A stretch of 64,000 nt of DNA from Peptostreptococcaceae bacterium (lineage in GTDB: Bacteria > Bacillota > Clostridia > Peptostreptococcales > Acidaminobacteraceae): NCBI GenBank assembly GCA_027064135.1, contig JAMOQG010000145.1, positions 1-64,000 of the forward strand. The letters are read 5' to 3'. The translations under genes and the position numbers were made by a program. Below, in pieces: positions 441-3,610 of the stretch. Positions within the stretch are counted from its first letter, which is position 1. Each line of letters opens with the position of its first letter. Under the pieces are notes generated by a model. That model was not told the origin of the DNA and searched no databases. It saw only the letters and a program-made list of their open reading frames with translations.

Positions 441-2066
441 TTAATCACCAACTTCATCTGAAATAATTTTCCAAATATTTTCTGTTTCAAATCCTTTAGA
501 CCACATTGCAACACCTGCTAAATTTAATTCATTTACAAGTTTTGTTTTTTCTTTTATTGATATCTCTTCTTCAAGCCATACTTTTTTTACTTTTGAATCT
601 TTTATATAACTAACAAAAAACTGCTTTGCCTTATCATCCCAAATAGGCTTAACATCAATATCATTTAATAAATTTCTTTGCCCTTTTAAAGTTATAGTTT
701 TTGATGTTACATCCATTTGATTAACTACTGTTTTTGAAGGAACTTCATACCATATTCTTGTGAAAAAGGGTATTCCCATAATAATTTTTTCGCTATCAAC
801 AATTTCAATAATTTCATTTAATGAATCTTTAACCCAATTGTAAGAAGCAACTGAGCCACTTTCTTTTGAACTTGCCCAATGTTCATCATATGTCATAATA
901 ACTAAATAATCAACTAGCTCTGAAATGCGTAATCTATCATAACATAAAGACCAATTTTCACTTCCACCCATTACTGTAACATCAACACTTACAATAATAT
1001 TCTTTTTAGAAAACTCATAACTTAACTCTGAAATAAACTGAGTAAATTTATCTTTATCTTTCATGTAAATATTTTCGAAATCAATATTAATTCCTTCAAA
1101 TTCATGCTTTTCAAATTCCGTTATAAGATTTTCAATAAATAATTTTCTGCTATTTGAATTATTTAAAAATCTTGACGTCATTTCGATATCACCAAATGTA
1201 TTTGAAACTAGAGGCCATATTTTATAATTGTTATCTTTTGCTGAATTAATATAGTTTTCACTTGATATAGAACTAAAATCTCCAGAATCTGAAGTTAATT
1301 TATACCACGTTGGAGAAATTATATTTAACCCTTTAATTCCACTAATTGTTCTTGAGTCCGAATAAGAATAAATTTGATCCCAAGTCATTATAATTTTATC
1401 CTTATTAGAAAGAGCTAATTCTTTTTTTGCTTTTATTTCAGTTATATTTTTTAAATCATCTTTTTTAATATAACCATATTCAAAGTTTTCATTATAACCA
1501 TAATACCAATTTTCATCTACTTCTGAAACTATAAATTCCTCATCAAGTATTACTACTTTAGTTTTATCACTTTCAATATTATTATATTTATATAAAAACG
1601 CTTCTTTATTTATTTTACCTTTTAAACTATTTCCATTTTCATTTTTAATTAATACTAATTTGTTATCTTCACTATAATATGATTTAATACCAAATTCTCT
1701 TTCAAGTAAATTATAATCAATAAAAACTTCACCTTTAATAATTTTAATATTCTTATCATCTAGGTCAAATCTAAATAACTTATCTCTATTTGAAAGAGTT
1801 ATTATCTTATTATTAAAATCGAAATCATAATCTACATTCCTATTATTTATCAATTTAATAGGTAAATATTCAATTTCATTATTATAAATAATTTGATTAA
1901 AATAATTCTCACTTTTAATAAAAGTTTTTAATTCAAAATCATTTTCAACAATTATTTTAAATTCATCACATTTTGTAATTTTTATAGTATTATCCTCATA
2001 GTTAATATAATAATAAGCTAAGAACCCTATTACTAAAATTAAAATAAAAATTATTATTTTTTTCAT
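441..2066 (-). CDS. Membrane-anchored glycosyl hydrolase family 18 protein with SH3-like domain (YaaH/spore-germination-like)
   Basis: N-terminal TM; GH18 active-site-like EGINIDFENIY and DYLVIMTYDEHW motifs; start taken at internal ATG (ORF track starts at GTG 2075). Confidence 0.75.
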   Translation of the reverse strand: MKKIIIFILILVIGFLAYYYINYEDNTIKITKCDEFKIIVENDFELKTFIKSENYFNQIIYNNEIEYLPIKLINNRNVDYDFDFNNKIITLSNRDKLFRFDLDDKNIKIIKGEVFIDYNLLEREFGIKSYYSEDNKLVLIKNENGNSLKGKINKEAFLYKYNNIESDKTKVVILDEEFIVSEVDENWYYGYNENFEYGYIKKDDLKNITEIKAKKELALSNKDKIIMTWDQIYSYSDSRTISGIKGLNIISPTWYKLTSDSGDFSSISSENYINSAKDNNYKIWPLVSNTFGDIEMTSRFLNNSNSRKLFIENLITEFEKHEFEGINIDFENIYMKDKDKFTQFISELSYEFSKKNIIVSVDVTVMGGSENWSLCYDRLRISELVDYLVIMTYDEHWASSKESGSVASYNWVKDSLNEIIEIVDSEKIIMGIPFFTRIWYEVPSKTVVNQMDVTSKTITLKGQRNLLNDIDVKPIWDDKAKQFFVSYIKDSKVKKVWLEEEISIKEKTKLVNELNLAGVAMWSKGFETENIWKIISDEVGD

Positions 2067-2076
2067 TTTCCCCACT

Positions 2077-2197
2077 TTATCCCAAATTGTGGATAACTTG
2101 TATTGTTTATGCTATTTTATCCACATTTCATTATTTTTTTTTTAAGTAAATATCCACTTTTCTTAAAGTTTTCAACACTATTCACATCTTATCCACA
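2077..2197. promoter_or_regulatory. DnaA-box cluster
   Basis: Perfect TTATCCACA at 2088-2096 (reverse), 2117-2125 and 2189-2197; ctattcaca 2178-2186 and weaker boxes nearby, around a T-rich tract. Confidence 0.7.
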
Positions 2198-3610
2198 TTA
2201 TTTATGTCTAGTTACCCTGAACTTTTCCACAATATAATCCTCAGTTTTATTAATTCCTGCTTTTCTTAATACAATATCAAGTTGTTTTTCTACCGTATCA
2301 ACACCATCTAAATTTGGTAGCAAAAGTCCTCTTTTATAACCGCTTTCAACAATTATTCCATACTTTTTAACATCTAATTCTTTTAAATCATTTACTTTTT
2401 CACTTTTTTCTAAAATATCCACAGAAATTACTAACTCATTTAATTCATATTCTTCAACTTCATTAAATCTAGGATCTTTAGTTGAAGCTTCAATTGCATT
2501 TCTTACAATTTCTTTTGCAATATTTTTTTCTACACCCATACCAGTGGTTCCAATACACCCCCTTAATAAAGAATGCTTTTTAATCGATACAAAAACACCG
2601 GCTCTTTTTTTTAGCATTTCAACCGGTAAATTCATGTTAAAAACATCTATTTTCTTTCCATTTTTAATATATTCTTCAATTGTAGTTCTTGCGAGTTTCA
2701 CATACTCATCTTCATTTTCAACAATTTTTTTCTGCTTTATTATTTCATCATTTAATAAAATATCATATATCTTTTTAGAATTATTATTAATAAAATTTTT
2801 AAAAGAAACTACTCCATAGCCAACACCAAAAGATCCTTCATATGATAAGACTTCAGATTCATAATCATAACCATCAAGAGTTCCAAGCAATGTATCTATT
2901 GATCTTTTTCCGCATTCTGAAGCTTCATTTACAAAATAAGCATCCATATTTAAAATACTTCTTATATCTTTTTCATTTAAATAATTAATTATTTTCTTAT
3001 CAAATAAAACACCATTTGGAGAATAAGTATACGGACCTTTATTTGACAATTTATGTGATAAATCTCCACTTGCAATAAATACAATTTTTTTATTAGTATT
3101 TTCACAAGCTTTTCTAATCGCCATTCCAAATTTATAATGTTCTATATATGAAAGTCCACTGTAATTAATATGAACAAGATTATAATTACTATATATTTTT
3201 TCAATATAATATAGCGGTACAATTATTCCGTGATCAATTTCATCAGTTATATTAAAACGTTTTACTAAATCGTTATCAAGTTTTGCAATAGGTATATTTT
3301 CTAATAAACTTTCAGCAAATATTTCTTCAACTAGAGAAATTTCATTTTCTTTTTTTAATTCAATATTTTCATATCCAAATTTTCCTAAATTACCATATAG
3401 TGAATCTTTATAATTAATAGTAAAAGCATCTGAAAAAACCGTTCCATGTGGAGTAATAACAATAATTGTATCAGGTTTCATATTTTTAATTTCATTTGCG
3501 ATCTTTTCTATAGCATCTTTTGTTTTTTTAACAACTAAAACATCCTCTTTACCTATCATATCAATTATAATAGGGGGATGAGGCATAATGTAACCTGCTA
3601 TTATTGACAT
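2198..3610 (-). CDS. AmmeMemoRadiSam-type fusion: MEMO-like (class III extradiol dioxygenase-like) N-domain plus AMMECR1 C-domain
   Basis: N-terminal MPHPPIIIDMIG..., VFIASGDLSHKL; C-terminal GVFVSIKK...LRGCIGTTGM, KDPRFNEVEEYELNELVISVDIL. Confidence 0.85.
   Translation of the reverse strand: MSIIAGYIMPHPPIIIDMIGKEDVLVVKKTKDAIEKIANEIKNMKPDTIIVITPHGTVFSDAFTINYKDSLYGNLGKFGYENIELKKENEISLVEEIFAESLLENIPIAKLDNDLVKRFNITDEIDHGIIVPLYYIEKIYSNYNLVHINYSGLSYIEHYKFGMAIRKACENTNKKIVFIASGDLSHKLSNKGPYTYSPNGVLFDKKIINYLNEKDIRSILNMDAYFVNEASECGKRSIDTLLGTLDGYDYESEVLSYEGSFGVGYGVVSFKNFINNNSKKIYDILLNDEIIKQKKIVENEDEYVKLARTTIEEYIKNGKKIDVFNMNLPVEMLKKRAGVFVSIKKHSLLRGCIGTTGMGVEKNIAKEIVRNAIEASTKDPRFNEVEEYELNELVISVDILEKSEKVNDLKELDVKKYGIIVESGYKRGLLLPNLDGVDTVEKQLDIVLRKAGINKTEDYIVEKFRVTRHK

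Follow-up and report, generated by a model that had tools for sequence, protein, structure and literature searches.

We identified, in the intergenic gap between a MEMO/LigB-AMMECR1 fusion gene and a glycoside hydrolase family 18 (GH18) gene, a dense group of DnaA boxes that is probably an extra-origin DnaA-box cluster (DBC) of the Bacillus subtilis type, taking up DnaA and restraining or timing the initiation of replication. The sequence data show that the cluster exists, that it is not an origin, and that relatives keep it 3' of the MEMO gene.

A dense cluster of DnaA boxes behind MEMO-AMMECR1

The window, by which we mean the whole 64-kb stretch of DNA that was analysed, is the start of contig C145 of a draft genome (2.68 Mb, 158 contigs). 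The intergenic element, which is not assigned to a strand, occupies positions 2067..2197, from the stop codon of MEMO-AMMECR1 to the start codon of GH18. It measures 131 bp if the start of GH18 is the ATG at 2066, the open reading frame running from a GTG at 2075. Both flanking genes are on the minus strand: the MEMO/LigB-AMMECR1 fusion at 2198..3610 (Pfam LigB 9.6e-47, AMMECR1 7.5e-43) and GH18 at 441..2066 (Pfam PF00704 3.9e-29). Perfect TTATCCACA boxes are found at 2189..2197 (plus strand, adjoining the MEMO-AMMECR1 stop codon), at 2117..2125 (plus), and at 2088..2096 (minus), the last being opposed to the box at 2117 and 29 bp from it. A weak box with a single mismatch, CTATTCACA, lies at 2178..2186 (plus), in the same orientation as the box at 2189..2197 and 11 bp from it, start to start. 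The coordinates given for these four boxes in the first-pass annotation are reproduced exactly. The weaker boxes that it also listed, TTATCCCAA at 2077..2085 and ATATCCACT at 2150..2158 (both plus), are present but marginal, with two mismatches each to TTATCCACA, and contribute little. The sister species (G001) keeps the box at 2189, reads TTATCCACT at the one at 2117, is identical over the stretch around the marginal box at 2150, and does not keep the one at 2077.

A published rule for DnaA-box clusters requires at least three boxes with an average spacing below 100 bp (cited in PMC7561715). The element has three perfect boxes and a weak one within 110 bp, outside oriC. The 64-kb window contains 5 occurrences of TTATNCACA when 4.7 are expected from shuffles, so its total is at chance level and the clustering alone is unusual. 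The whole draft genome has 21 occurrences of TTATCCACA and 108 of TTATNCACA, and the number of chance triples within 110 bp expected genome-wide is about 8e-6 for the former and about 1e-3 for the latter. The gap beside MEMO is the densest TTATCCACA place in the genome and has no equal elsewhere; two copies of TTATCCACA within 120 bp of each other occur at just one other place, upstream of dnaA on contig C142. The genome-wide counts and the expectation for chance triples thus bear out the initial claim of a dense cluster. Among the observations named in advance as speaking against it were a uniform density of boxes and a lack of conservation in relatives. The density is non-uniform, and the cluster is kept in relatives, as detailed below.

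The origin of replication lies elsewhere

The genome encodes a single full-length dnaA, on contig C142, whose product includes the box-recognition motif GGRDHTTVIHA. The gene order on that contig is rnpA, a box-containing gap (oriC1), dnaA, a second gap (oriC2) with a DnaA-trio CTATTACTATTACTATT and an AT-rich stretch, and dnaN, which adjoins oriC2. Both dnaA and dnaN are therefore outside the window, as had been noted from the window alone. The genome has its own complete, normal bipartite oriC at rnpA-dnaA-dnaN, and the layout matches that of the clostridial bipartite oriC of Clostridioides difficile (PMC7561715). The MEMO-side cluster shares with oriC1 and oriC2 of C. difficile the DnaA box and the placement of clusters in intergenic gaps (PMC7561715). 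What it lacks are the other marks of the clostridial bipartite oriC, which lies on both sides of dnaA and comes with a DUE, a DnaA-trio, and a skew switch.

Dense DnaA boxes together with a T-rich tract in an AT-rich gap would be compatible with a second or alternative replication origin. We judge this very improbable, and reject it given the full canonical oriC on C142 and the behaviour of the GC skew. Throughout the window, each 4-kb step has a negative skew, and the sign is the same to the left and right of the cluster, although only 2 kb of contig lie to the left of the cluster and a switch further left would be invisible in this genome. In the relative G124, which has a complete 5.79-Mb chromosome (20 stretches sampled), the skew stays below zero as far as dnaA at 2.83 Mb and is positive beyond. 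The switch is thus at dnaA, and there is none at the homologous cluster, which is at 3.752 Mb, 924 kb from dnaA or about 32% of the arm. The cluster also lacks an adjacent dnaA or dnaN, and conservation of its T-tract does not extend to the sister species, for which reason we reject a role for the T-tract, or a DUE, in the gap. The first-pass annotation had preferred a secondary DnaA-box cluster over oriC, and had proposed GC skew as a check; the oriC on C142, the unswitched skew, and the chromosome of G124 all support this preference.

The cluster is conserved at the 3' end of MEMO-AMMECR1

We gathered MEMO-AMMECR1 genes from relatives and read the DNA 3' of the stop codon, counting a locus as positive when 300 bp contained two perfect boxes, or three when close variants were included. 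Under this strict rule, 17 out of the 70 MEMO loci of Peptostreptococcales were positive, and those of G058 and G008 were weaker. The same rule picked 1 out of 3500 shuffles and 30 out of 6540 random 300-bp windows drawn from long loci. The cluster was found in five families of the order—Acidaminobacteraceae, where it is shared with the sister species and with other genera, Thermotaleaceae (f11), f5, f8, and f12. Across these families, the cluster comes directly after the stop codon of MEMO, whose 3' end is its constant partner. Boxes are thus maintained at one locus in five families, with conserved box columns.

Most MEMO loci within Peptostreptococcales are devoid of the cluster, and in many of these relatives amrS begins directly after MEMO. 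In the tree of the MEMO protein, the presence of the cluster requires 5 changes, compared with 15.7 when the trait is shuffled, which indicates that it is inherited with its clades. Among the named MEMO loci, mostly from other Clostridia, 79 out of 80 were negative and the lone positive, Anaerosolibacter (the cluster is carried by Anaerosolibacter carboniphilus), belongs to Peptostreptococcales; on these counts we reject a MEMO cluster outside this order.

The boxes themselves are more conserved than their surroundings. In a set of five genomes (f11 and one f5 genome), 77% of the box columns are invariant compared with 13% of the others, and the corresponding values in f8 are 87% and 23%. Closer pairs and genus g7 show less of a difference. 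The spacings are also recurrent: an 11-bp tandem pair is followed by 63–64 bp to an opposed box, and then often by 12 and 35 bp. The tandem 11-bp step is the commonest spacing among relatives, in which steps of 11–12 bp and 63–64 bp recur. The window element retains the 11-bp tandem pair right behind the MEMO stop codon, where the perfect box at 2189 has a position comparable to that in relatives. These comparisons, made on nucleotide columns and distances, show the boxes and their spacing to be under selection.

Since opposed boxes are inverted repeats, the 9-mer might be incidental to a terminator or another RNA structure of the MEMO transcript. The window strand does fold somewhat better than shuffles (z −2.6), and the outer stem is made of two opposed boxes. 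The gap nevertheless has neither an intrinsic terminator nor an Rfam match, which led us to reject this explanation, and the relatives have up to eight boxes, many in tandem, that vary as DnaA-box variants do (TTGTCCACA, TTTTCCACA). Its probability is, in our view, close to nil.

The gene on the far side of the cluster varies

The gene beyond the cluster differs by family. It is GH18 in the window genome, in G011 and, at a weaker cluster, in G008; three genera of Acidaminobacteraceae have this gene at the cluster in common. It is amrS in most members of f5, f8, f11, and f12 and in G010. In four genomes it is convergent: cvpA in G007, G025, and G034, and another gene in G051. Both flanking genes end at the cluster in these four genomes, which leaves no downstream promoter for it to serve.

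These data bear on a role in which DnaA bound in the gap would repress or activate the outward-reading gene, GH18 here and amrS elsewhere, with the control of replication being secondary. The cluster is directly upstream of GH18 in the window genus and, given that GH18 is common to three genera, a regulatory role is possible there. Some B. subtilis DBCs located at promoters affect transcription (PMC4447404), and the element could be likened to those of sda, ywlC, and vpr. On the other hand, a site of the sda type is a cluster conserved upstream of one regulated gene, whereas here the downstream gene changes between families and, in four genomes, reads towards the cluster; what stays constant is the MEMO 3' end, and the gap region has no more promoter-like matches than chance would give. 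We thus reject promoter control as the main role of the cluster and regard it as unlikely.

A second cluster is found 3' of tsaD

In G124, four more boxes are found at 2,228,743-2,228,845 (L208:8743-8845), just 3' of a gene that, from its sequence, we take to be tsaD (gcp). Most of the Peptostreptococcales that we read (L220-L249) have a cluster behind tsaD, often facing a convergent ABC-F-like gene. Phylum-wide, it is present in the first 300 bp in 39 out of 60 Bacillota genomes (L250-L309), compared with 0 out of 3000 shuffles. Among the perfect boxes of the tsaD clusters, 110 out of 120 share one orientation. The window genus has no cluster behind tsaD.

This arrangement is that of a B. subtilis DnaA site described as 'downstream of gcp; downstream of ydiF', which is strong, with 10 sites and a Kd of 0.15 uM (PMC4447404). 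The literature that we searched, with the main B. subtilis papers lying outside it, contains no report that the tsaD cluster is conserved, which is not proof of absence.

Both loci could be scored in 29 genomes: 12 have both clusters, 5 only that of MEMO, 8 only that of tsaD, and 4 neither. Around 3.7 genomes with neither are expected under independence; the data therefore do not show one cluster replacing the other, and we reject a complementary loss of the two. The genomes with neither cluster are G134, G225, G227, and G168, from families f2 and f3 (L138, L147, L148, L149; L229, L231, L233, L236).

Two further observations were made in relatives. Elsewhere in G124, TTATCCACA occurs twice as an opposed pair, each time with a spacing of 28 bp, at L214:10462-10498 and C1:2716505-2716541, the former inside a longer inverted repeat, AAGTTGTGGATAAAA...TTTTTATCCACAACTT. 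The f8 genomes G054 and G043 (L192, L193, L197, L198) have, besides the full-length DnaA, extra open frames of around 300 aa with the C-terminal DNA-binding domain of DnaA.

A proposed role in the control of initiation

Because distant relatives retain the cluster in the same position and it is not an origin, it probably helps to set the time at which copying starts. We infer that DnaA binds it in vivo and acts from there on the timing of initiation, by titration or by inactivation of DnaA, rather than on a neighbouring gene. Cooperative binding of several DnaA molecules to the closely spaced tandem boxes would give a stable complex at a distance from oriC. Duplication of the locus by the fork would double these complexes, free DnaA would drop, and the next initiation would be delayed or restrained. 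No YabA was found above the cut-off in 24 genomes of Peptostreptococcales, which makes control by the availability of DnaA plausible. To our knowledge, the limits to initiation in Gram-positive bacteria outside Bacillus are poorly known.

The B. subtilis DBCs (Okumura 2012, as cited in PMC5295017 and PMC13220808, with sites given in PMC4447404) are the closest known systems. The window element resembles them, and especially the gcp/ydiF site, in being off-origin and intergenic, in having the same box consensus, and in that it can lie between two gene 3' ends; in one complete relative, G124, it is also on a chromosome arm, at about 0.32 of the arm from oriC. It differs in its locus, 3' of MEMO-AMMECR1, in that the window genome has three strong boxes only, in mixed orientation, and in being known here as a sequence element. 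Deletion of six off-origin DBCs in B. subtilis results in early initiation (PMC5295017, PMC13220808), and a position close to oriC is of importance (PMC5010248). Against a titration reading, one review rates these DBCs as minor for initiation (PMC5295017). Furthermore, the main off-oriC regions of B. subtilis have 4-11 sites (PMC4447404), compared with which the three strong boxes of the window genome suggest that titration capacity may be small. The lack of the cluster at MEMO loci in most of Peptostreptococcales and at 79 of the 80 named loci also counts against this reading, as does its place upstream of GH18 in the window genus.

The element is also like E. coli datA, an off-origin DnaA-box cluster that lowers the potential for initiation, which is the role proposed here. 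What is described for datA goes further: it is about 1 kb long, has five boxes, depends on IHF, and promotes the hydrolysis of DnaA-ATP (PMC5295017). A nucleotide switch of the datA or DARS type, which would drive DnaA-ATP hydrolysis or ADP release beyond simply holding DnaA, could account for close and partly opposed boxes at fixed spacings over around 220 bp, as these point to a complex of defined form and not to loose titration. The gcp/ydiF DNA of B. subtilis also prefers ATP-DnaA 16-fold at low DnaA (PMC4447404). However, datA needs IHF, and no such switch is established in B. subtilis (PMC13220808), so we find this role distinctly unlikely. The uptake of DnaA by a B. subtilis-type DBC is the reading that we retain for the MEMO-side cluster, which has good comparative support from the genomes analysed.

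It is conceivable, if tentative, that Bacillota have a few ancient fixed off-origin elements, 3' of tsaD phylum-wide and 3' of MEMO-AMMECR1 in Peptostreptococcales, that would be initiation-control loci on a par with datA and DARS of E. coli; the window genus, without the tsaD element, would then have only the one behind MEMO to rely on. With the tsaD counterpart, a DnaA site known from B. subtilis is seen in 39 of the 60 sampled Bacillota genomes, so that it could be tested across the phylum. As a conserved, non-coding DnaA element that stays with the 3' end of a single gene and sometimes has only converging flanks, the MEMO-side cluster could be cleanly deleted in tests of titration.
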